The notes beneath the pieces were generated by a model. The model saw only the letters and a program-made list of their open reading frames with translations, was not told the DNA's origin and searched no databases. Position numbers and translations under genes: made by a program. Shown piece by piece: positions 5,906 through 50,322 of a DNA stretch of 64,000 nucleotides (positions within the stretch are counted from its first letter, which is position 1; each line of letters starts with the position of its first letter). The stretch is from Nostoc carneum NIES-2107 (GTDB taxonomy: Bacteria > Cyanobacteriota > Cyanobacteriia > Cyanobacteriales > Nostocaceae), in contig AP018180.1 in NCBI GenBank assembly GCA_002368155.1, positions 2,761,947-2,825,946 of the forward strand. Direction: 5' to 3'.

Positions 5906-6397
5906 ATGACAAATGTTGACTACTGGCTATTGACATTAAAACTTTTCACAGTCTTGGGCTGCTCTCTGGTTGCGGGAGTCTTCTTTGCCTTTTCCACTTT
6001 TGTGATGAGTGCTCTGGCTCGGCTTCAGCCTAGAGAAGGCATTGTTGCTATGCAATCCATCAATATTACAGCCATCAATCCGTGGTTTATGGTGGCGCTA
6101 TTTGGAACAGCACTGGCTTGCGTGTTTCTGGCGATCGCATCACTATCAAAGTTACATCAACCTGGTGCAGTTTACTTGCTGCTTGGGAGCCTATTCTATC
6201 TCGTAGGTACAATTTTGGTGACGATCGCTTTTAATGTACCCCTCAATGATGCTCTGGCGATCGCCAAACCAGATAGCACTGAGGGCGCAAATCTCTGGGC
6301 TAGATATCTTGCCAATTGGACATTCTGGAACCATGTGCGAACAATAGCGGCATTTAGCGCAGCTGCTTTGTTGGCGATCGCACTCTGTAAGCAATAG
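5906..6397 (+). CDS. DUF1772 family membrane protein
   Basis: A 163-residue protein with four hydrophobic segments: about 8-36 (LKLFTVLGCSLVAGVFFAF), 55-80, 85-108 and 140-160. The N-terminal pattern GVFFAFSTFVM SAL, the NITAINPWFM motif and W-ARYLANWTFWNHVRT near the C-terminus match DUF1772, which includes fungal anthrone oxygenases, although bacterial members are mostly uncharacterised. Function here is unknown. HIP1-related GCGATCGC sites are dense within the gene. It is preceded by CAGAGGG before the ATG and appears to stand alone. Confidence 0.8.
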   Translation: MTNVDYWLLTLKLFTVLGCSLVAGVFFAFSTFVMSALARLQPREGIVAMQSINITAINPWFMVALFGTALACVFLAIASLSKLHQPGAVYLLLGSLFYLVGTILVTIAFNVPLNDALAIAKPDSTEGANLWARYLANWTFWNHVRTIAAFSAAALLAIALCKQ

Positions 6398-6581
6398 GAC
6401 TGGTCTAATGAATAACGATTAGCTTAGCTAACGAGAGAATCAGAGTTTTAGCTGATTCCTCACTCAGGTTTGATTATCCCAATTTAACTAGAAGAGAGTT
6501 AAATTAGTTTCATTGCACTTAGAAAAAACACTTACTTAATGAATCCCAATTTCGACCAAGAGCTAGAAGTAGAAATTCTGG

Positions 6582-6726
6582 CTACAGTAATAAATCTCTG
6601 ACCAATTGCGACAAGCGACGATTTTGACGTTTAAGAGCATCTAAAATGCCACTATTTGATTTGGGTTCTTGCTGGAACTTAATAGCAGCTTCAATAGTAG
6701 AATACATCGCGGCTAAAGGTGTGCTT
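6582..6726 (-). pseudogene. Relic of a histidine-kinase dimerisation domain
   Basis: The minus strand reads TPLAAMYSTIEAAIKF, then LDALKRQNRRLSQLVRDLLL and a TAG at 6582-6584. This is the helix-1/helix-2 region of a HisKA domain: the kinase signature HELRTPLAAM is present from its Thr onward, but the phospho-accepting His and everything before it are missing, as is the ATPase domain. About 45 codons survive. It is a gene fossil left by deletion, too short to fold as a kinase. Confidence 0.65.
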
Positions 6727-6812
6727 ATACACTTTATTAATGCAGGGTATAATATTTAATCTATAGTATTAGCAATTAGCCAGATATTCCTTGATTAAAA
6801 GAGAAATATGCT

Positions 6813-7025
6813 ATGACTCCAGAACAGCAAGAAACAGAAATATGGATAGATTTAATGCGTAAACGGCTGCAAAATGTAAACAATCGCTCATACGCATTAG
6901 CTATTGAGTATTACTTACAGAAAATGGCAGATAATTTAGATGATGAAAGACTCCTTGATGATTGTCTCTACAACATTCAAATGTTACGCATCCAAAGACA
7001 TTGGCAAAATTCGGCATTGAATTAG
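6813..7025 (+). CDS. Small hypothetical protein, 70 residues
   Basis: An acidic/basic helical protein with no signal or membrane segment. It starts at an ATG with GAGAAAT upstream and contains the helical stretches EIWIDLMRKRLQNV and LAIEYYLQKMADNLDDERLLDDCLYNIQML. I do not recognise it. Its length, an in-frame start with no competing long frame, and regular helix periodicity make it a plausible gene. It sits 87 bp downstream of the kinase relic, so it could belong to the same eroded locus. Confidence 0.55.
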   Translation: MTPEQQETEIWIDLMRKRLQNVNNRSYALAIEYYLQKMADNLDDERLLDDCLYNIQMLRIQRHWQNSALN

Positions 7026-7310
7026 CTGGAAGCGTGCAAAACTTGAAATCGTTCGCATAGTTCTGGATTCCATTTATCTGGCACTTTAAACCTCTTGTTC
7101 TTACAGTAACAATTAGGTAATTTTATTCACAGCAGATGTTTGCTAATTAGCCACAAATAAAAAAGTAGATAGTCATAGTTAAAGATGGCAGCATTCTGAT
7201 GAACTCTATATTTTCTTATATACGGAAAAAGGGAAAAAAGTTGTTCCTTTTTCGGCTTCACTTTTCCCCCTTTTTAATATAGTTATATGCAATTGCCAAT
7301 CTACTGAGAT

Positions 7311-8258
7311 TCAATTGGAAATGTGCAATATAGCTTTACCTGGATATTGTCTGTCAAGTAGCTTTTGTGCCACATCAGCAATTTGTGTCCAATTAGCTTC
7401 AATATTAATGTGAGGACGTAATTGTCCTGCTTCTACTAAACGTAAAAGTCTTTGCAATCCCACTGCGGCTGACTCCCGTTGTAATTCATGGAACAAGATT
7501 AAACCGTACAAACTTGCGCCACCTGTGCCATAAAAACTCTGGGCATTAAATGTGACTTCTGTACCTCCGGATGTACCGAATAGCACAACAGTACCGTTTG
7601 GTGCTAACCAACCAAGAGATGTGCCTAAAATATCGCTACCTACTGACTCAATAATCAAGTGATAGGAACCATATTCGCTTTCTTTTGAAAGCTTTTCACC
7701 AATAATTACAGCATGGGCACCAGCATCTTTGACGAAAGATTCGTATTCTGGGCGGCGAATATGTGCTACTACTTGTGCGCCACTGAGCCGTGCTAGTTGA
7801 ATAGCAAAGTAGCCAACACCACCAGATGCTCCGGTAATTAATACTGAGCGTCCTAAAAGTGAACCGCCTTTGAGTAGAGCATGATAGGCAGTTAAACCCG
7901 CTACGGGTAAAGTCGCAGCTTGTTCAAAGGATACTGAAGCGGGTAATTCTGCTAGAGAGTGGGTGGGTACTGATACCAATTCCCCCCAAGCACCAGAACG
8001 GAGTAAACCAACAACTCTAGTTCCCGCGGCTGGGCCTGAACCGTCAGCCGCAGGCGTTTCTACAACACCAGCTAAATCCCAACCAGGCCGCCAACCAGCA
8101 GCAGCAGTGGTGGAACGTCTGACTTCTCCGCGGTTGAGAGAAATTGCTACTACTCGGATTACTGCCTCATTAGCAGCTGGGGTAGGTGCATCGACATCAC
8201 GCAGTACTAAACGCCCTGATACATTGGGGTCAACAACAATGGCACGTATTTTGCTCAT
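7311..8258 (-). CDS. Zinc-independent MDR oxidoreductase (quinone reductase-like)
   Basis: A 315-residue medium-chain dehydrogenase/reductase. The N-terminal GroES-like fold includes SLNRGEVR and GWDLAGVV. The nucleotide-binding Rossmann motif ITGASGGVGYFAIQLA lies at about residues 140-156, and LFGTSGG at about 227-234 follows. The structural zinc-binding Cys cluster of alcohol dehydrogenases is absent, so it groups with NADPH:quinone reductases and enoyl reductases. The substrate is unknown. The region upstream of the ATG begins directly with GGGATTAGGGATT heptamer repeats, leaving no strong Shine-Dalgarno site. Confidence 0.85.
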   Translation of the reverse strand: MSKIRAIVVDPNVSGRLVLRDVDAPTPAANEAVIRVVAISLNRGEVRRSTTAAAGWRPGWDLAGVVETPAADGSGPAAGTRVVGLLRSGAWGELVSVPTHSLAELPASVSFEQAATLPVAGLTAYHALLKGGSLLGRSVLITGASGGVGYFAIQLARLSGAQVVAHIRRPEYESFVKDAGAHAVIIGEKLSKESEYGSYHLIIESVGSDILGTSLGWLAPNGTVVLFGTSGGTEVTFNAQSFYGTGGASLYGLILFHELQRESAAVGLQRLLRLVEAGQLRPHINIEANWTQIADVAQKLLDRQYPGKAILHISN

Positions 8259-41159: not shown

Positions 41160-41327
41160 CCTCTATTTCAGTCCAGTAGTGTGCGTTATCAAGTAGACCT
41201 GACTTTTCCCGTTAAGTCTTTTTTGCAAGCTGCCAGCCCTCACAGAGGTCGTGTAATTTTAACCAACCTCGCCACAGTACCTGAATACCAATGGGTGTTT
41301 TACTTCGATGTTCTAAGTAAGAAGTAG
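41160..41327 (+). other. Short open frame, possible gene remnant
   Basis: Open from just after a TAG (41157) to TAG at 41325-41327, about 55 codons. It reads VRYQVDLTFPVKSFLQAASP, then GRVILTNLATVPEYQWVFYFDVL, which looks like normal protein sequence, but the only start is GTG at 41181 without a Shine-Dalgarno site. It is probably a remnant of a larger gene. Not recognised. Confidence 0.3.
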
Positions 41328-41356
41328 GTGGGAGTATTTGGATTTACCTAAAAAAG

Positions 41357-41569
41357 TTAATCATTAAAAAAGTTTGGATTTAAATCAACAGGAAATACCA
41401 AAAGTTCCCTAGCCGCCTCCTGCTTAGTTATTTGATAAATTTCGATTGCCTTTAATAACCGACAGTATTTAATTGGTATCCATTGCCCATCACTGAAAAA
41501 ATATATTACAACCCGGTGATTTAGGTATTGTTCTGAAGGAAGCGGAACACTCCAGTTGTCAGTCAACAT
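41357..41569 (-). CDS. Small hypothetical protein, 70 residues
   Basis: A soluble protein: MLTDNWSVPLPSEQYLNHRV, VIYFFSDGQWIPIKYCRLLKAIEIYQITKQEA, ending LNPNFFND. The start is an ATG. Not recognised. It may be a true small gene; the pair of short frames here suggests a locus in decay or a small accessory cassette. Confidence 0.5.
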   Translation of the reverse strand: MLTDNWSVPLPSEQYLNHRVVIYFFSDGQWIPIKYCRLLKAIEIYQITKQEAARELLVFPVDLNPNFFND

Positions 41570-42020
41570 CTATTTCTTGAGTCATATATTTACTAGGCGT
41601 GCACTATTGATTTTTTGATTCCTTCTCATCCTATTGATATGCAACTGTTTTGATTGACTATCTCTAGTTAGGTTCCCATTTATTACGAAGGTTATATTTT
41701 AACAATCAGCAGCGAATAATTAAGTTAAGATAAATGAGTGAATAATTGCACTGAATATTTATTGAATGAAATTGAAATTTTTCAAACCTAATAGACATTA
41801 AAAATATTCCTGTCAACTATTACAAAAAAAATAATATAGGTGACTATTAATCGTGGAAATTTAGTTACAACTTATGGGCGCAAATTTACCCAGAAACTTG
41901 TGAATTATAGCCAAACTCAAATAAACCCAGTGGCGCAATTCTAAGGTCGCAGGGATGAAAAAACGACACACAGGCGTTGCAGTTGCTTTGTTCTTTTGGA
42001 TTTTCGACCTGACGACTACA
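41570..42020. other. Intergenic, 451 bp, AT-rich
   Basis: AT-rich stretch downstream of cysK and upstream of the 70-residue gene, both minus strand. A 64-codon open frame starting at 41955 on the plus strand is mostly antisense to cysK and unsupported. I see no repeat family. Confidence 0.4.
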
Positions 42021-42980
42021 CTAAATTACCTCTATTATTTCTGTGCTACTTTGGTTCCACATGACCGTGCTGAGATAGCGTTCTCCCGCACTGGGTTGGA
42101 GAATCACAATTCGTTGCTGATTGTAGTGCGATCGCTTTCCTATTTGTAACCCAGCATAAACCATTGCACCTGTGGAGATTCCACTGAGGATGCCTTCTAC
42201 TTGAGCTAATTGTCGTCCTGTTTCGTAAGCTTGCGTCTCGCTGACTGTAAAAATTTCATCGATGAAATCGACTCGCAAAACATCGGGAATGAACCCTGCA
42301 CCAATACCCTGTAAATTATGTTCCCCTGCGGGTTTACCACTTAGCACCGCACTATTAGCGGGTTCAACAGCAATTATTTGGATGTGGGGATTTTGCTGTT
42401 TGAGATAGCTACCAGCACCGGTGAGAGTTCCGCCTGTTCCCACACCGACAATTAACATGGCAATGTCACCATCAGTATCCTGCCAAATTTCTGGCCCAGT
42501 AGTATCGTAATGGATTTTGGGATTGGCGGGATTGCTGAATTGATGGGGTGAGAAAGCATTGGGAATGGTGGTGAGAAGTTGATTCGCATGAGCGATCGCT
42601 CCTTGAATATCTGCGGCGGCCGGAGTTAAAATTACTTCTGCACCATAAGCTTGGACAATTTGCCGTCGTTCCTGGCTCATGTTTTCTGGCATAGTCAAAA
42701 TCAAGCGATAGCCCTTGGCGGCACATACCATTGCTAACCCAATCCCAGTATTTCCAGAGGTGGCTTCGACAATGGTGGAAATTCCCGGTTGGATTAACCC
42801 CGTCCGTTCTGCTTCTCGCATCATGCTAATGGCAATTCGGTCTTTTACCGACTTAGCGGGATTCATCCCCTCCAATTTCAAGACAATTTCCGCCACACAG
42901 CCAAACAGCTGCGGTAAGCGTTGTAGTTTTACCAGGGGAGTATGTCCAACAATTTCTGTAATGTCATGATAAATTCGCAT
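42021..42980 (-). CDS. cysK: Cysteine synthase (O-acetylserine sulfhydrylase)
   Basis: A 319-residue PLP enzyme. The PLP-binding Lys46 is in NPAKSVKDRIA, the substrate loop is TSGNTGIG (about 69-76), the phosphate loop is GVGTGGTLTGAGSYL and the closing motif is GISTGAM. It makes cysteine from O-acetylserine and sulphide. It starts 17 bp after the 904-residue fusion gene on the same strand, so the two very likely share a transcript. Confidence 0.92.
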   Translation of the reverse strand: MRIYHDITEIVGHTPLVKLQRLPQLFGCVAEIVLKLEGMNPAKSVKDRIAISMMREAERTGLIQPGISTIVEATSGNTGIGLAMVCAAKGYRLILTMPENMSQERRQIVQAYGAEVILTPAAADIQGAIAHANQLLTTIPNAFSPHQFSNPANPKIHYDTTGPEIWQDTDGDIAMLIVGVGTGGTLTGAGSYLKQQNPHIQIIAVEPANSAVLSGKPAGEHNLQGIGAGFIPDVLRVDFIDEIFTVSETQAYETGRQLAQVEGILSGISTGAMVYAGLQIGKRSHYNQQRIVILQPSAGERYLSTVMWNQSSTEIIEVI

Positions 42981-42997
42981 TCAGAAAATTATGTAAT

Positions 42998-45712
42998 TTA
43001 CTCTAAAATCATCAACCGAAACAGGAATGCTGTAAAACCCAACATCAATAAAAGATGGGGAAGATTCTTAAATATTGGTCGCTGAGTAATGCGTAACAGG
43101 GGATAAGGGCTGAAAATCATTGCTGAGAGTAGCGTTACCCCTTGGAGAAATTGAGCCACATCAAAACTCCAGGTGAGTGTGGGTAAGGAAGCACCACTAA
43201 ATCCTAAAGTTCTGGCTACCACAGGCAGAATTTGCCCTGCTTCCATCATGGCAGCGGGAATGTAGTGAGCGAGATTGGCTGCTAAAGTGAAGGGAAGATA
43301 GGCGTAGATGACGGTGAGATAGTTCGGTTGCTGTGGATCGAAGAAACGAGCGATCGCATGAGTCAAATAAGTCAAGATGGCGGGAATAGCCAAAAATACT
43401 AGGGCAATGGGAATGCTCATCAGTAAATGATCGGCATTGATGGGAATCCCATCCCATCCCAACCATCCCAGAATTGTCTGGGTATGGTGCATGAATACGC
43501 CACCAAACAATAACAGCAATAGAGCCGCTTCTGCCCAAAAACCTCGATGATTGTCTAATAAATCTGATGCTGGAAATCTGAGATTTAATTGTGCTGAACG
43601 ATTGGGACAGGCTTTGAGGCAAGTCATGCACAACATACAGTCTCGGTTATCTTGCAACTGTGCTGGGTGGGAATAAAGGGGACAACCGCCTGTTGCCTGT
43701 CCTTCATTGGCTAAGGCATCGGCAAAGGTAACAGGTGTAGCATCACTGCCTTTGTAACAGCCAAAGGTGTTGCACTGGCTGCCACACACCTGCTGCGTCG
43801 AGCGCAACTCCACCATCGAGAGTTTAGCAAACATCCCATTCATGCCCCCAATCGGACAGAGATAGCGACACCATAACCGCCGTTCATAAATCAGGCTAAA
43901 AATCACGGCACCAGCTGTAATTACCACCAGCAACCAGGCAGAAAGATAAGCATGGTGCGGTAAATCCCAGAGTTTTTCCCACAGATAAATGGCCACAAAA
44001 CCTGCAAATAAAATCCAGGCTCCCCAACGGTTCAGCCATTGGGTATTCCAGGGGAGTTGCTGACGCGGCCACAGCCACAGAGAGAATCTTCGCAACCATT
44101 CGCCAGTAATCATAAATGGGCAGACGGCACACCAAAGGCGACCGACAAAGGCAAACAGAAACAAATACCCAGGCCACCACCATGCCCAAAATAAATTCAG
44201 GGTGATGCTGCTCTGGCGCTCTTGCGGGCCGATAAATCCCAGGATTGTCACAGGTACAAAAACTGCCATCATCACCACCCAGATGCCTTCGGGATACCAC
44301 CAACTCAATAAAACTCGTCGCAACCAAGGGACATGAGTTAACAGGTCAAGGCGAAAGGCATTCTTTGTGGATTGCACCGACCACAATGCCTGCTCAGAAA
44401 TGACCGTATGGCCAGATGGTGTCATAATCACAGCACGGTGCAAAATCTCTGCCAGTTCTGATAAGTTGCCAGGATAGTCGTAACTGAGGAGACGGCGTAG
44501 ATTTGATTGATCCAGCCTTAACAACGAGCGATTCTGTTCTCGGCAGAACTGAGCAAGAAAGTAACGGGCAAAGTCGAGGATATCTGCTTTGCGTTGGGGT
44601 AGAGTAAAGAGTTTGATAGTGATGGCGTTAACATCAGACAACTCTAGTTTTTGAGGAGATGCCAAAATCAGCCGCACCCAAGACTGGATCGGTTGAGGTG
44701 GTTGAGTTGCCAAATCCGTTTTGCTGACAATGCCATGATTGGGCAGTACTAATCCGGTTTTGAGATAGTGAATTAAGCGAGTGCGATCGCCTTCACTCAA
44801 TACTTGCACATTTTCTAACAGCAGGGTGCCACGCTCCAATAGTTCCAGGATGCCGGGTTGCTGACCGATTCTGCCAAACAAAGTATCGGTATCTAGCCGA
44901 CCATCTTCAGAACGAGGTAAATTAGCACAATCCATTTCTGCAAAGGGTTGCGCTGCCAATGCAGAACGAGCATGGATTAGCCCTGCTACAAAGGTTTTAC
45001 CTGTACCTGGTTGCGCCTGTAAGATTACAGGCTGGAGATTTGCGGCTGCTTGATGAATCTGCTGTGCGAGTTTTTGGGCTGCTTTACTACTGCCGAGAAT
45101 GCTGGCTTCGTTAGGAACAGCTTGAATGTAGGATTTTAACCCTTGAATTCGCATCTGTTCTTTAGCAATGCGCGCCGCATATTCATGCAAATCCTGATCA
45201 AGGAGGGAATGAATTACCTGTTGGATTGCTGGGTATTCCCCAATTAGGGTTTGAAACTGAGCTTGGGGGAGAAACCAAATTTCACTTTTGCTAAGAGCGA
45301 TCGCACTGGTTTGATAATTGCCCTCAACCGCATTGGCAACTAGTGTATAGCCAAACAAATCTCCGGCATTGCGGTAACGAATTAGCGATTTCCCAATCAG
45401 GGATTGACGGAAGATTTCCACACTACCCCATTTGATCAGGTACATACCAATGGGCGTTTGTCCTTCCTGGTAAATAAACGTTTGTGGTTCTACATGAAAG
45501 CAGTAAAAAGATTGAGCGATCGCCTGTAATACTTCTTTGGGCAATTTACCCCAAACTCGATGAAAACTTAGCCAACTGCTACATTCAGCCACTAAAGACT
45601 CATTCAAAGTTACAGCACTAGCGTTGTCTGTTCCCAAAGGGGATATTTGTCCTGGCATTACCAGAACTGGCTCTCTTTGAAGACTATTGGTCAAAGTTTC
45701 TCCAAAATCCAT
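42998..45712 (-). CDS. cNMP-binding / degenerate AAA+ / polyferredoxin fusion
   Basis: A 904-residue protein of three modules. Residues about 50-165 are a cyclic-nucleotide-binding domain (FIYQEGQTPIGMYLIKWGSV, NAGDLFGY). Residues about 205-440 are a bacterial-enhancer-binding AAA+ domain: Walker A QPGTGKT (234-240), but LFG(280) runs straight into RIGQQPGILE, so the sigma-54 GAFTGA loop is deleted. Walker B is GTLLLEN instead of GTLFLDE, and the sensor-II Arg is Ser418 (PGNLSEL). Residues about 470-904 are membrane helices of a NapH/NosR-like polyferredoxin: Cys528/Cys531 (CAVCP), Cys615/Cys619 (CRYLCP), a Cys643-647-652-677 set and a Cys692-695-698-702 ferredoxin motif. No output HTH is present. 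It is probably a redox-linked signalling or electron-transfer protein; function unknown. Confidence 0.85.
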   Translation of the reverse strand: MDFGETLTNSLQREPVLVMPGQISPLGTDNASAVTLNESLVAECSSWLSFHRVWGKLPKEVLQAIAQSFYCFHVEPQTFIYQEGQTPIGMYLIKWGSVEIFRQSLIGKSLIRYRNAGDLFGYTLVANAVEGNYQTSAIALSKSEIWFLPQAQFQTLIGEYPAIQQVIHSLLDQDLHEYAARIAKEQMRIQGLKSYIQAVPNEASILGSSKAAQKLAQQIHQAAANLQPVILQAQPGTGKTFVAGLIHARSALAAQPFAEMDCANLPRSEDGRLDTDTLFGRIGQQPGILELLERGTLLLENVQVLSEGDRTRLIHYLKTGLVLPNHGIVSKTDLATQPPQPIQSWVRLILASPQKLELSDVNAITIKLFTLPQRKADILDFARYFLAQFCREQNRSLLRLDQSNLRRLLSYDYPGNLSELAEILHRAVIMTPSGHTVISEQALWSVQSTKNAFRLDLLTHVPWLRRVLLSWWYPEGIWVVMMAVFVPVTILGFIGPQERQSSITLNLFWAWWWPGYLFLFAFVGRLWCAVCPFMITGEWLRRFSLWLWPRQQLPWNTQWLNRWGAWILFAGFVAIYLWEKLWDLPHHAYLSAWLLVVITAGAVIFSLIYERRLWCRYLCPIGGMNGMFAKLSMVELRSTQQVCGSQCNTFGCYKGSDATPVTFADALANEGQATGGCPLYSHPAQLQDNRDCMLCMTCLKACPNRSAQLNLRFPASDLLDNHRGFWAEAALLLLLFGGVFMHHTQTILGWLGWDGIPINADHLLMSIPIALVFLAIPAILTYLTHAIARFFDPQQPNYLTVIYAYLPFTLAANLAHYIPAAMMEAGQILPVVARTLGFSGASLPTLTWSFDVAQFLQGVTLLSAMIFSPYPLLRITQRPIFKNLPHLLLMLGFTAFLFRLMILE

Positions 45713-46113
45713 AACGCCATTTTATAGCCGTAACTTGAATCACAAGTAGTTCTACGACATACATCTTAACTGGATGTAATTATTCTCAGGACTTTTGGCA
45801 GGATTGACGAGAAAAGCCTTAGGGGGTTTAAATCATTTTGCAGCAATTTAGTCAAAGCTGCGCGTCAGGTTAATCCCTCAGTCTTCAAGGGGCGACAATC
45901 GCCTCTAAACCTAGCCAGCTAAAGGTTTGAGGGGCACAGACCCCTGGAAAAATTGGGGTGCTTATTGAGAATGAACTATACGGTTATTAGGCGGCTATCT
46001 GTAAGGTACAGTTTAATGGTAAAAAAGAACGGTCTCGTAAATTTAACCAGACCGTCATCATTTGGAAGTCCCTTAGATAGAGAATTAACGAACTTGGTAC
46101 AGATTAAATTAAA

Positions 46114-46592: not shown

Positions 46593-48305
46593 ATGAAAAT
46601 TAGTCACAAATTAATTTTGGGTTTTGTGGGGATTGCAACTCTTACGGGAGCCATTGGTGCGATCGCAGTTGAGCAGCAATCCCAGGCGGCTAAATATCTG
46701 GCGCGACAGGAAGCTGAAGAAGTAGCGATGCTACTGGGGTATTTCGCGAATCATGAGTTGGAAGTGCAAAAACCGCGATCGCCTACGGAAATGTTAGCCA
46801 AGTTGCAAAATCATGTTTTAGCGCTACACAACCAACGGCAACGCGATATAGAAATCGTAGACCGTAATAAAATCATTTTGGCAGATGTAATTCCTGAAGA
46901 CATCGGCACGAAATTGGATCACGATCAAAATAATGAAGTTGGTCAAACTATTCAAGATGGTATCGCCAGAACTTATATTGAAATTAGTGATGAGTATCCC
47001 CAAGGAATTTACTTAATTGCTGTTCCTTTTCAAAATAGTCAGGGTGCAACTATTGGTGCTGTAATTTTGGAATATACGCCACTCTATAAAGCAGCAATGG
47101 CGGCAGCACAAAAAAGTATTGTGGCAACATCAATTCTCACTTTGGTCTGTGGTTTACTAGCATTAATAGCAGGTTCGCTGATTGCTAATCATATCTCTAA
47201 ACCAATTCAAAAACTTCAAAAAGCTGTTTTGAATTTAGCTGAAGGTAAACTAGATACTAGAGTTACTATGAATTGCCAAGATGAAATTGGCGAGTTAGCT
47301 ATTGCTTTCAATAAAATGGCTCATGATCTGCAAAGTTCTCGCTGGGAATTGTTGAATATTAACGAGCAATTGCGCGATGAAATTGCCGAACGACAGCAAA
47401 AAGCAATAGAATTGCAAGCAGCTTTGCAAAATCTCCAAAATCTGCAAAAAACTCAAGCTCAATTAATTCAATCTGCAAAAATGTCTAGTTTGGGACAATT
47501 AGTAGCAGGTATTGCTCACGAAATTAATAATCCAGTCAGCTTTATTCACGGCAATTTGACTCATGTAGAAAAATATGCTGAAAGCTTGATGAACCTTGTC
47601 GAACTCTACCAAGAATATTACCCCGACCCAGTGGTAGAAATTCAGGCGGAAGCTGAGAATTTGGAACTAGAGTTTTTGCGGGAAGATTTACCCAAGACTG
47701 TTGATTCGATGAGAATAGGAACTTGTCGGATTCGTGAGATTGTGCGATCGCTTCGCAATTTCTCACACATAGATGAAGCTGAATATAAGGTTGTAAATAT
47801 CCATGAGGGTATAGATAGCACTTTGTTAATTTTGCACCATCGCCTGCAAGCCAAAGCAGGTTTACCAGCTATTGAAATAATTCGAGAATACGGTAATTTG
47901 CCTCTGGTGGAATGTTATGCTGGACAACTCAACCAAGTTTTGATGAATCTGCTAGCAAATGCGATTGATGCTTTAGAAGAAGCTAATAGCAAACGCACAA
48001 CTCAACAGCTAAAAGATAATCCTAACCGCATCACCATTCGCACATCTATCATCGATACCCAGTGGGTGCAAATTGCGATCGCAGACAATGGTATCGGTAT
48101 ACCAGAAACAGCGCGCCACAATTTATTTAATCCTTTTTTCACAACTAAGCCAGTGAACAAAGGTACTGGAATGGGATTGTCTATCAGTTACCAAATCATT
48201 ACAGAAACACATGGTGGCAAACTAGAGTATGTCTCGACTCCAGGTGAAGGAACTGAGTTTATCATCCAGATTCCCAGTCACCAAAAAGTTCTGGCAACAG
48301 TTTAA
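46593..48305 (+). CDS. Membrane sensor histidine kinase, tandem copy A
   Basis: A 570-residue kinase. TM1 (about 7-28) and TM2 (about 176-198) bracket an extracytoplasmic sensor of about 150 residues rich in Gln/Glu. HAMP follows (ISKPIQKLQKAVLNLAEGK), then a coiled coil, and a HisKA domain with phospho-acceptor His309 in GIAHEINNPVSF. The ATPase domain has N (NAIDAL), G1 (DNGIGIP), F and G2 (GTGMGLSI) boxes. The HxxNNP type with long linker is common in cyanobacteria. There is no cognate regulator next door. It is about 80% alike to copy B by eye. Confidence 0.9.
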   Translation: MKISHKLILGFVGIATLTGAIGAIAVEQQSQAAKYLARQEAEEVAMLLGYFANHELEVQKPRSPTEMLAKLQNHVLALHNQRQRDIEIVDRNKIILADVIPEDIGTKLDHDQNNEVGQTIQDGIARTYIEISDEYPQGIYLIAVPFQNSQGATIGAVILEYTPLYKAAMAAAQKSIVATSILTLVCGLLALIAGSLIANHISKPIQKLQKAVLNLAEGKLDTRVTMNCQDEIGELAIAFNKMAHDLQSSRWELLNINEQLRDEIAERQQKAIELQAALQNLQNLQKTQAQLIQSAKMSSLGQLVAGIAHEINNPVSFIHGNLTHVEKYAESLMNLVELYQEYYPDPVVEIQAEAENLELEFLREDLPKTVDSMRIGTCRIREIVRSLRNFSHIDEAEYKVVNIHEGIDSTLLILHHRLQAKAGLPAIEIIREYGNLPLVECYAGQLNQVLMNLLANAIDALEEANSKRTTQQLKDNPNRITIRTSIIDTQWVQIAIADNGIGIPETARHNLFNPFFTTKPVNKGTGMGLSISYQIITETHGGKLEYVSTPGEGTEFIIQIPSHQKVLATV

Positions 48306-48630: not shown

Positions 48631-50322
48631 ATGAAAATTAGTCACAAATTAATTTTGGGGTTTCTGGGGATTGCATCTCTGACGGGAGGAATTGGTGCGA
48701 TCGCAGTTAATCAGCAATCACAAACAGCTAAGTACCTTGCTCGACAAGAAGCTGAAGAGGTAGCCATGCTACTGGGATATTTTACAAATCATGAGTTGGG
48801 TGAGGAACAACCGCGATCGCAATCTGAAGTTTTATCTCGGTTGCAAAATCATGTTTTGGCGCTACACAAGCAGCGTCAACGTGATTTAGAAATTGTAGAT
48901 CGCAATAAAATCATCCTGGCAGATGTAGTTACTGAAGACATCGGCACTAGATTGGAAGACGATCAAAATAATGAAGTTGGTAAAACTATTCAAGATGGTA
49001 TCAGCAGAACTTATATTGAAACTAGTCCTGAATATCCCCAAGGAATTTATTTAATTGCTGTTCCCTTTAAAACAAATAATGGTGACATTATTGGTGCAGT
49101 CATTCTGGAATATACACCACTTTACAAAGCAGCAATGGCAGCAGCACAAAAAAGTATTGTGGCGACATCAATCATCAGTTTGGTGTGTGGTGTACTGGCG
49201 TTAATAGCAGGTTTCCTCATCTCTAGAAACATCTCTAACCCAATTAAACAACTCCAGCAAGCTGTTTTAAATCTGACTGAAGGCAAATTAGATACTAGAG
49301 TAACTATTCATTCCCAAGATGAGATTGGTGAGTTAGCTACCTCGTTCAACACTATGGCTAACGATTTGCAAAAGTCTCGCTCTGAGTTGCTTGATGCTAA
49401 CGAGCAATTGCAAAATGAGATTACTGAACGCCAACAAGCAGAAGCCGAACTTCAGCAAACTCTAAAAAATTTGCAAAAAACCCAAGCTCAATTAATTCAA
49501 TCGGAAAAAATATCTAGTCTTGGTCAATTAGTAGCAGGTATTGCCCACGAAATTAATAACCCAGTCAACTTTATTCATGGCAATTTGACCTATATAAAAG
49601 AATATGTTGAAAGCCTAATCGACTTTGTGCAACTATATCAAAAGCATTACCCCAACCCAGTTATAGAAATTCAAGCTGAAGCTGACAACATTGAACTGGA
49701 ATTTTTGCAAGAAGACTTATGGAAAATTTTAGATTCAATGAATATGGGAACCTCTCGGATTCGTGAGATTGTGCGATCGCTTCGCAATTTCTCCCGGATG
49801 GATGAAGCTGAATATAAAGCTGTAGATATCCATGAGGGGATAGACAGCACTTTGTTAATTTTGCACCATCGTTTGCAATCTAAAGCAGATTTACCAGCAA
49901 TTGAGGTAATGCGAGAATATGGTAATTTACCTTTGATTGAATGTTATGCAGGACAACTCAACCAAGTATTCATGAATATTTTGGTAAATGCAATTGATGC
50001 TGTAGAAGAAGCCAATACCAAGCGTAGCAATCAACAAATAAAAGACAATCCCAGCCGCATTACTATTCGCACATCCCTGATAGATTCACAGTGGGTACAA
50101 ATTGCGATCGCAGATACTGGCACAGGTATACCAGAAACAGCACGTCACAATTTATTTAACCCTTTTTTCACAACTAAACCAGTCAATAAAGGTACTGGGA
50201 TGGGATTATCTATCAGTTACCAAATCATCACAGAGAAACATTGCGGCAAATTAGAGTATGTCTCAACTTCTGGTGAAGGAACTGAGTTCATCATTCAGAT
50301 TCCCATTCGGCAGACGGTGTGA
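48631..50322 (+). CDS. Membrane sensor histidine kinase, tandem copy B
   Basis: A 563-residue paralogue of copy A with the same order: TM1, extracytoplasmic sensor, TM2, HAMP (ISNPIKQLQQAVLNLTEGK), coiled coil, HisKA with His306 (GIAHEINNPVNF), and ATPase (DTGTGIP, GTGMGLSI). Most differences lie in the periplasmic part and in the linker before HisKA, where copy A has seven extra residues (LQNLQNLQKTQAQ type repeat). One Cys (EKHCGKLEY) replaces a Gly near the end of the ATPase. Both frames are intact, so both may function. Confidence 0.9.
   Translation: MKISHKLILGFLGIASLTGGIGAIAVNQQSQTAKYLARQEAEEVAMLLGYFTNHELGEEQPRSQSEVLSRLQNHVLALHKQRQRDLEIVDRNKIILADVVTEDIGTRLEDDQNNEVGKTIQDGISRTYIETSPEYPQGIYLIAVPFKTNNGDIIGAVILEYTPLYKAAMAAAQKSIVATSIISLVCGVLALIAGFLISRNISNPIKQLQQAVLNLTEGKLDTRVTIHSQDEIGELATSFNTMANDLQKSRSELLDANEQLQNEITERQQAEAELQQTLKNLQKTQAQLIQSEKISSLGQLVAGIAHEINNPVNFIHGNLTYIKEYVESLIDFVQLYQKHYPNPVIEIQAEADNIELEFLQEDLWKILDSMNMGTSRIREIVRSLRNFSRMDEAEYKAVDIHEGIDSTLLILHHRLQSKADLPAIEVMREYGNLPLIECYAGQLNQVFMNILVNAIDAVEEANTKRSNQQIKDNPSRITIRTSLIDSQWVQIAIADTGTGIPETARHNLFNPFFTTKPVNKGTGMGLSISYQIITEKHCGKLEYVSTSGEGTEFIIQIPIRQTV

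Follow-up and report, generated by a model that had tools for sequence, protein, structure and literature searches.

A membrane polyferredoxin joined to a degenerate sigma-54-activator domain in Nostoc carneum and other cyanobacteria, with a linked cysteine synthase in one subfamily

The gene described here encodes a three-part protein and lies in a window of 64,000 nucleotides (the whole stretch of DNA that was analysed) from Nostoc carneum NIES-2107 (assembly GCA_002368155.1, contig AP018180.1, positions 2,761,947 to 2,825,946). All coordinates below are those of the window, and the gene, its domains and the gene that follows it are on the reverse strand. The open reading frame (ORF), 42998–45712, encodes 904 amino acids in one frame with zero internal stops. 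From the N-terminus, the protein consists of a CRP-like domain of the cNMP_binding fold (residues 73–159; 45236–45496), an AAA+ domain with its lid, of the sigma-54-activator type (residues 203–445; 44378–45106), and a membrane polyferredoxin (residues 455–904; 43001–44350). The corresponding Pfam matches are cNMP_binding at 73–159 (50.2 bits, cut-off 27.5), Sigma54_activat at 205–322 (48.0 bits, cut-off 20.2), AAA_lid_14 at 373–444 (above cut-off) and Fer4_5, which is above cut-off in two stretches, the best being 592–631; three smaller Fer4 models match below their cut-offs. A first-pass annotation had proposed a fusion of these three parts, and the protein is indeed intact and belongs to a conserved family, which we call the cyanobacterial pseudo-activator/polyferredoxin family. 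A cysteine synthase ORF (42021–42980) starts 17 bp past its stop codon on the same strand, and the two genes together make up a two-gene unit (42020–45748).

A scan of 84,980 species genomes returned 371 coding stretches, and the analysis used the 80 best of them. These 80 are all cyanobacterial, and fall into subfamily A, to which the window protein belongs (56–82% identity to it over the best segment), and subfamily B (38–41%). The host genome (9.36 Mb, four contigs) has three full-length copies, namely the window gene and copies at 75% and 39% identity. The A set contains 45 loci (43 from the scan and two in the host genome); 40 of these gave rows of at least 650 amino acids, and five were dropped as split or truncated (L031, L037, L041, L043 and L052). 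All 38 loci of the B set (37 from the scan and one in the host genome) gave one-frame rows. The alignment has 78 rows (40 A and 38 B), and 16 extra rows (L134–L149) were inspected separately. The A copies L024, L031, L036, L037, L041 and L043 are broken into two or more frames, by decay or sequencing error.

Family members (E < 1e-50) occur in at least 72 of 292 phylum genomes by hand count, which is a lower bound because at most three candidates were scored per genome. All 72 genomes belong to the window's own class, which accounts for 139 of the 292 drawn, and nine listed genomes of one genus (g5) in the window's family gave zero family matches. Among plasmids, viral contigs and the best 80 of the 371 stretches, no such fusion was seen outside cyanobacteria, and no viral copy was confirmed among the viral contigs. 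The fusion protein was not found in print in the open-licence PMC literature.

Judged by its residues, the AAA+ domain is a pseudo-ATPase, a former activator domain. It is predicted to fold like the AAA+ domains of activators (Foldseek E-value 1.2e-12 to 1ny5), in a full-length model with a mean predicted local distance difference test score (pLDDT) of 80.8 and a predicted template modelling score (pTM) of 0.56. Its best sequence match in the PDB is VpsR (6.3e-20), whose aligned stretch also has no GAFTGA loop. Walker A is kept, as PGTGKT at residues 235–240 (44993–45010), and G236, G238, K239 and T240 are present in 40/40 A rows. The residues that we take to be catalytic in activators (the Walker B Glu, the sensors and the arginine fingers) are lost. 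Walker B has degenerated to TLLLEN at residues 296–301 (44810–44827), with E-N at 300–301 versus D-E in activators. At position 301, that of the catalytic Glu, the 40 A rows have Asn (36), His (2) or Gln (2), and Glu in none; the preceding Asp is kept in 22. At the sensor-I position (353), Pro is found in 37/40 A rows (P353 in the window protein) and Glu in 36/38 B rows, and the arginine-finger region (357–365) has no Arg conserved across the A rows. The sensor-II position (418) is Ser in the window protein, never Arg in A, and Arg in 13/38 B rows.

The GAFTGA loop is cleanly missing at residues 280–287 (44852–44875), where LFG280 joins RIGQQPG directly. Homologues that keep the loop were sought, and a GAFTGA-like string occurs in none of the 78 aligned rows and none of the 16 extra rows; the span from LFG to GT is 15–16 residues in 77 of the 78, and 21 in one. 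The protein has no C-terminal helix-turn-helix (HTH): the first membrane helix begins at 472, soon after the end of the lid near residue 445. The first-pass annotation had stated the retention of Walker A, the loss of the loop and the changes at Walker B and sensor II, all of which hold; the losses at sensor I and the arginine fingers can be added to them.

Subfamily B departs further from an ATPase. Thr240 of Walker A is Asp in 38/38 rows, the Walker B pair is Asn-Asn in 37/38 and Ser-Asn in one (position 301 being Asn in all 38), and a nearly fixed EPGLxKDN stands in place of the P-loop, with the exact form EPGL-E/G-KDN in 34/38. The same motif is present in the seven rows L134–L140, which are members from small genomes. 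Its carriers overall are the B loci L003, L047–L051 and L053–L084 and the rows L134–L149, small-genome members included. Because subfamily B is without the Walker A Thr, ATP gating cannot be the core function shared across the family.

The membrane half carries four sets of cysteines: C528/C531, C615/C619, C643/C647/C652/C677 and C692/C695/C698/C702. The first two form membrane-edge motifs, C528-x2-C531-P (44117–44131) and C615-x3-C619-P (43853–43870). The other two are predicted [4Fe-4S] ligand sets, one atypical (C643-x3-C-x4-C-x24-CP) and one classical (C692-x2-C-x2-C-x3-CP), which together occupy 43604–43786. Eleven of these twelve positions are Cys in 78/78 rows, and C702 is Cys in 77/78. 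The four sets and the NapH/NosR-like type of this half were recognized at first pass, with two details now corrected: the first membrane motif is CX2CP, and the length is about 450 rather than about 430 residues. Rows L134–L140 keep all 12 cysteines despite having no aligned CRP-like domain and a decayed AAA+ domain (Pfam was run on four of them); their hosts are small genomes of one family, presumably picocyanobacteria. Nine membrane helices are predicted (from hydropathy and AlphaFold2 helices), and because the loop charges fit an N-in arrangement of these helices, the N-terminus and all Cys sets are predicted to be cytosolic. Between A and B, mean identity falls from 0.64 in the Fe-S core to 0.32 in the AAA+ domain and 0.25 in the N-terminal domain. 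By this measure, the redox core is the most constrained part of the protein.

The CRP/FNR-type fold of the N-terminal domain is supported by Pfam and by PDB sequence matches, and cNMP_binding is also above the Pfam cut-off in L002 and L003; it is absent by Pfam from the five shorter members scanned (657–725 amino acids; L134, L136, L137, L140 and L142). The phosphate-cassette Glu and Arg, which we take to be the usual cyclic-nucleotide contacts, are missing in the window protein: cAMP-type domains aligned to it have FGE where it has FGY, and its YQTSA contains no Arg. An acid at 121–124 is found in 0/40 A rows and an Arg at 132–136 in 9/40, with both in none, and the first-pass proposal that a cyclic nucleotide gates the protein is not borne out, as the fold matches and the contacts do not. 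For subfamily A as a whole, such gating seems unlikely. B rows have the cassette acid in 37/38 and the Arg in 11/38, and because the two occur together in 11/38, some B members could still bind a cyclic nucleotide. From the same retention of the acid, and in part of the Arg, in B, the two subfamilies may sense different ligands.

The downstream gene matches the cysteine synthase model TIGR01139 of NCBIfam at 419.9 bits (cut-off 350.95), and its product has the SVKDR (pyridoxal phosphate lysine) and TSGNTG motifs and belongs to a separate CysK clade. The linkage, at which the first-pass annotation had hinted, is conserved in one subfamily and not in the other: a linked cysK lies beside 22/45 A loci, always downstream and on the same strand, and beside 0/38 B loci (L003 was inspected with 1.5 kb flanks only). 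The gap between the two genes is 5–487 bp in 19 loci and 973 bp in L012, where a hydrolase gene intervenes; in L036 and L041, which are nearly identical to each other and have cysK in pieces, it is 1354 bp. The nearest other CysK copies of the host genome are only 57, 56 and 55% identical to the linked one, and in a tree of CysK sequences a single branch with 100/100 support divides 20 linked rows (labelled as such at ≥63% identity) from 18 others. Among 34 A-bearing genomes, which came from 36 A loci, a cysK at ≥66% occurs in 16, and these are precisely the genomes with cysK beside A (16/16 positions checked); in the remaining 18 the best cysK is at ≤61%. Among 386 phylum genomes, with at most five candidates scored per genome, a cysK at ≥67% occurs in six (100, 83, 73, 68, 67 and 67%), 6/6 beside an A gene, and the next best is at 61%. 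The two surveys overlap, in that three of the six (G330, G213 and G207) have coordinates in common with the genomes of L005, L038 and L043. In the genomes searched, the linked CysK clade is seen only beside A, and A is often without it. In a family tree made by a quick method, with support only from the Shimodaira-Hasegawa-like approximate likelihood ratio test (SH-aLRT), the linked state is found in deep A branches, and several losses seem to have followed, among them one in the Nostocales A clade. Linked CysK rows read EATSGNTG versus EPTSGNTG or EPTTGNTG in other CysK rows, and TTG versus TTA, which could mean altered substrate use.

The two-gene unit (42020–45748) matches an Aulosira laxa NIES-50 plasmid, typed as conjugative, at 95.9% identity over 3,729 bp. 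The match ends 36 bp before the A start codon and one base past the cysK stop, and the flanks are unrelated; beyond the edge of the match there are only a few alike promoter bases, and these are at different spacing. Because the match is bounded by the unit in this way, A and cysK appear to have moved together. No convincing terminal repeats or target duplications surround the unit, and no mobile-element ends were found there. The other A copy of the host genome (L002) falls in a clade with 100% support that holds Nostocales copies and does not include the window copy. Close to the unit, 41190–41320 and 41314–41895 match transposase-associated DNA (Nostoc and Fischerella plasmids) and two hypothetical genes (a Calothrix plasmid), which hints at plasmid-derived DNA. 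On the Aulosira laxa plasmid (L095), positions 6067–7763 adjoin the plasmid copy and hold a MerR-type regulator and an ArsP_1 permease.

Gene clustering around 83 loci gave no strongly conserved neighbour besides cysK. Five loci (L005, L010, L012, L014 and L024) are followed by a NUDIX-type gene, and two (L005 and L012; Pfam was run on the L012 genes only) by an alpha/beta hydrolase. An upstream NtcA-type box was considered and rejected, since it occurs in 7/39 A and 0/38 B regions versus 4.2 and 3.7 in letter shuffles. Elsewhere in the window, two tandem and closely similar ORFs (46593–48305 and 48631–50322, forward strand) look histidine-kinase-like by eye.

An activator-type domain in a host without sigma-54 was the premise of the first-pass annotation, and it is supported: the rpoN profile PF04552 gives no match in the host genome, and matches in 4/14 control genomes, E. 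coli and B. subtilis among them. Of the 292 phylum genomes, nine have a match at E ≤0.001; two pass the cut-off and only one does so clearly (62 bits). This last is a Sigma54_DBD match in a 207-amino-acid frame (G125:C1:411956–412339) and marks an rpoN-like gene, rare in cyanobacteria, in a genome from the window's own family. A passage of PMC3162934 reports that none of 29 cyanobacteria examined had sigma-54 or its activators, and a passage of PMC12316311 names two exceptions for rpoN among cyanobacteria. Because it has no GAFTGA, no catalytic Glu and no rpoN match in its host, the protein is not a sigma-54 activator, despite its database names.

Among known systems, the membrane half is most like NapH, NosR and RdhC (PceC), which have membrane helices with two Cys-Pro motifs; two [4Fe-4S] sites are known for NapH and NosR (a passage in PMC5928378). 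NapH is still the nearest named membrane family, although the NCBIfam napH model (TIGR02163) scores 41.6 against a cut-off of 213.05. The window protein differs from this group in its first motif, CX2CP instead of CX3CP, in its atypical first cluster motif and in having five further predicted membrane helices and the AAA+/CRP-like N-terminus. Unlike NosR and RdhC, it has no FMN_bind domain, and PF04205 is without a match in the host genome. Extracytosolic flavinylation is described as strikingly underrepresented in Cyanobacteria in part of PMC8238504; a NosR-like flavin partner is, on both counts, unlikely. RdhC/PceC was proposed at first to be a regulator, and was later recast as an electron-transfer candidate, like NosR (again from a passage of PMC5928378). 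Membrane 4Fe-4S proteins that stand alone in Deinococcus ficus and in haloarchaea are 21–29% identical over 67–97% of the C-terminal half (29% over 97% for D. ficus). Glu728 and Glu824 are kept in the two that were aligned, the two that were scanned have no CRP-like/AAA+ part, and their neighbour genes are different.

The N-terminal half has its own relatives. Its AAA+ and lid fold and its Walker A are those of the enhancer-binding proteins (NtrC, NifA and PspF, with VpsR as a degenerate relative), from which it differs in that GAFTGA, the catalytic Glu, sensor I, the arginine fingers and the HTH are all missing. CRP/FNR sensor domains share the fold of the first domain, with the difference that subfamily A is without the usual nucleotide contacts, and no HTH was found by Pfam. 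Slr1529 of Synechocystis (annotated ntrX) shares its product name with the Aulosira copy (97.6% identical) and, judged by that name, is probably a member of subfamily B. For slr1529, PMC4182526 gives a drop to 0.29 when copper is in excess, and a table on iron deprivation in PMC3516471 lists negative values. In a metabolome study of supposed-regulator knockouts (PMC5318462), delta-slr1529 is one of the six strains singled out by principal component analysis (PCA) as changing most at 72 h, though slr1529 is outside the 72 h Euclidean-distance list and is named once in the main text.

We interpret the protein, at about even confidence, as a membrane-bound Fe-S redox protein that faces the cytosol and carries a pseudo-AAA+ regulatory half, and not as a transcription activator. 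The Fe-S core is the most strongly constrained part, and for this reason the whole is read as a redox protein, with the activator half in a regulatory or docking role. Electrons would pass through the polyferredoxin between the quinone pool of the membrane and a partner in the cytosol; the N-terminal half would be a platform for docking, oligomerisation and regulation. In subfamily A, ATP might be bound without hydrolysis and set the conformation, much as in a natural Walker-B trap, in which ATP is bound and not hydrolysed. Because the gene linkage is exclusive, subfamily A may work with a dedicated cysteine synthase paralogue, and its redox or regulatory output may bear on sulphide or cysteine metabolism; CysK would then be its physical or metabolic partner.

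Several points weigh against this interpretation. Redox activity, cluster content, ATP binding and the partner are all inferred from sequence. A Foldseek search of the C-terminal model against the PDB gave no fold match (best E-value 1.4); the Fe-S loop is poorly modelled, with 69 residues below a pLDDT of 50, and the missing match is for that reason weak evidence. About half of the A loci (23/45, of which three run into a contig edge within 88 bp) have no linked cysK, and A can therefore function without it. Parts of the dead AAA+ domain are also under selection and not mere ballast, because EPGLxKDN is near-fixed in B and the sensor-II Arg is kept in 13/38 B rows. VpsR functions without sigma-54, and hydrolysis-dead AAA+ proteins such as VpsR still regulate transcription.

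The strongest competing explanation, which we consider possible and less probable than a redox carrier, is that the protein is a membrane redox sensor, whose clusters read the state of the quinone pool or oxygen and whose CRP-like/pseudo-AAA+ half signals to a partner such as CysK or a regulator. Both N-terminal domains are classical signal modules, the AAA+ fold is kept without catalysis in A and B, and the B form is widespread without cysK beside it and has a fixed motif at the former P-loop. The same N-terminal domains are, however, the least conserved, the CRP-like one is missing from the five shorter members scanned, and there is no visible output domain. That the protein regulates transcription independently of sigma-54, as implied by the database names "nitrogen assimilation regulatory protein" and "sigma 54-interacting transcriptional regulator", is unlikely: the likeness to VpsR, itself without GAFTGA, and the PCA result for delta-slr1529 would suit it, but the chain runs from the lid into membrane helices where an HTH would be expected, the host has no rpoN match, and slr1529 enters the family by product name and is not in the Euclidean-distance list of that study.

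A redox hub gated by a cyclic nucleotide is less probable again, and we regard it as very unlikely; the cNMP_binding fold is above cut-off in the window protein, L002 and L003 and the cassette is partly retained in B, against which stand the absence of the acid from every A row, the FGY and Arg-less YQTSA of the window protein and the members that have no such domain. That the fusion is a frameshift or assembly artefact, a cause the first-pass annotation had allowed for, is refuted, since one-frame rows of at least 650 amino acids come from 40/45 A and 38/38 B loci, with one-frame homologues at 57–78% identity on many independent contigs, and the frame breaks in some other copies have no counterpart in the window gene.

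Returning to the redox-protein interpretation, a more specific version for subfamily A is speculative and on balance improbable: a membrane redox switch set by ATP that is bound and never hydrolysed, wired to a private cysteine synthase, would form a portable module through which electron flow, photosynthetic or respiratory, would be coupled to the capture of sulphide, for instance in sulphidic mats. Hosts of A with cysK include Phormidium pseudopriestleyi FRX01 and Roseofilum, and sulphide is a theme in the titles and first abstract lines of papers on them (PMC8002359 and PMC4284477); the habitats of these hosts are a hint only.

For the family, the finding would explain why "sigma-54 activators" are annotated in organisms without sigma-54, the domain having survived, without catalytic function, as part of a membrane redox protein. 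It corrects a misleading name (nitrogen regulator), under which, if slr1529 is a member, at least one knockout has been put through a screen of supposed transcription regulators. The two subfamilies, of which A keeps Walker A and B does not, offer a natural experiment on pseudo-AAA+ domains, and the linkage in A suggests a connection, so far unexplored, between electron transfer in the membrane and the synthesis of cysteine.

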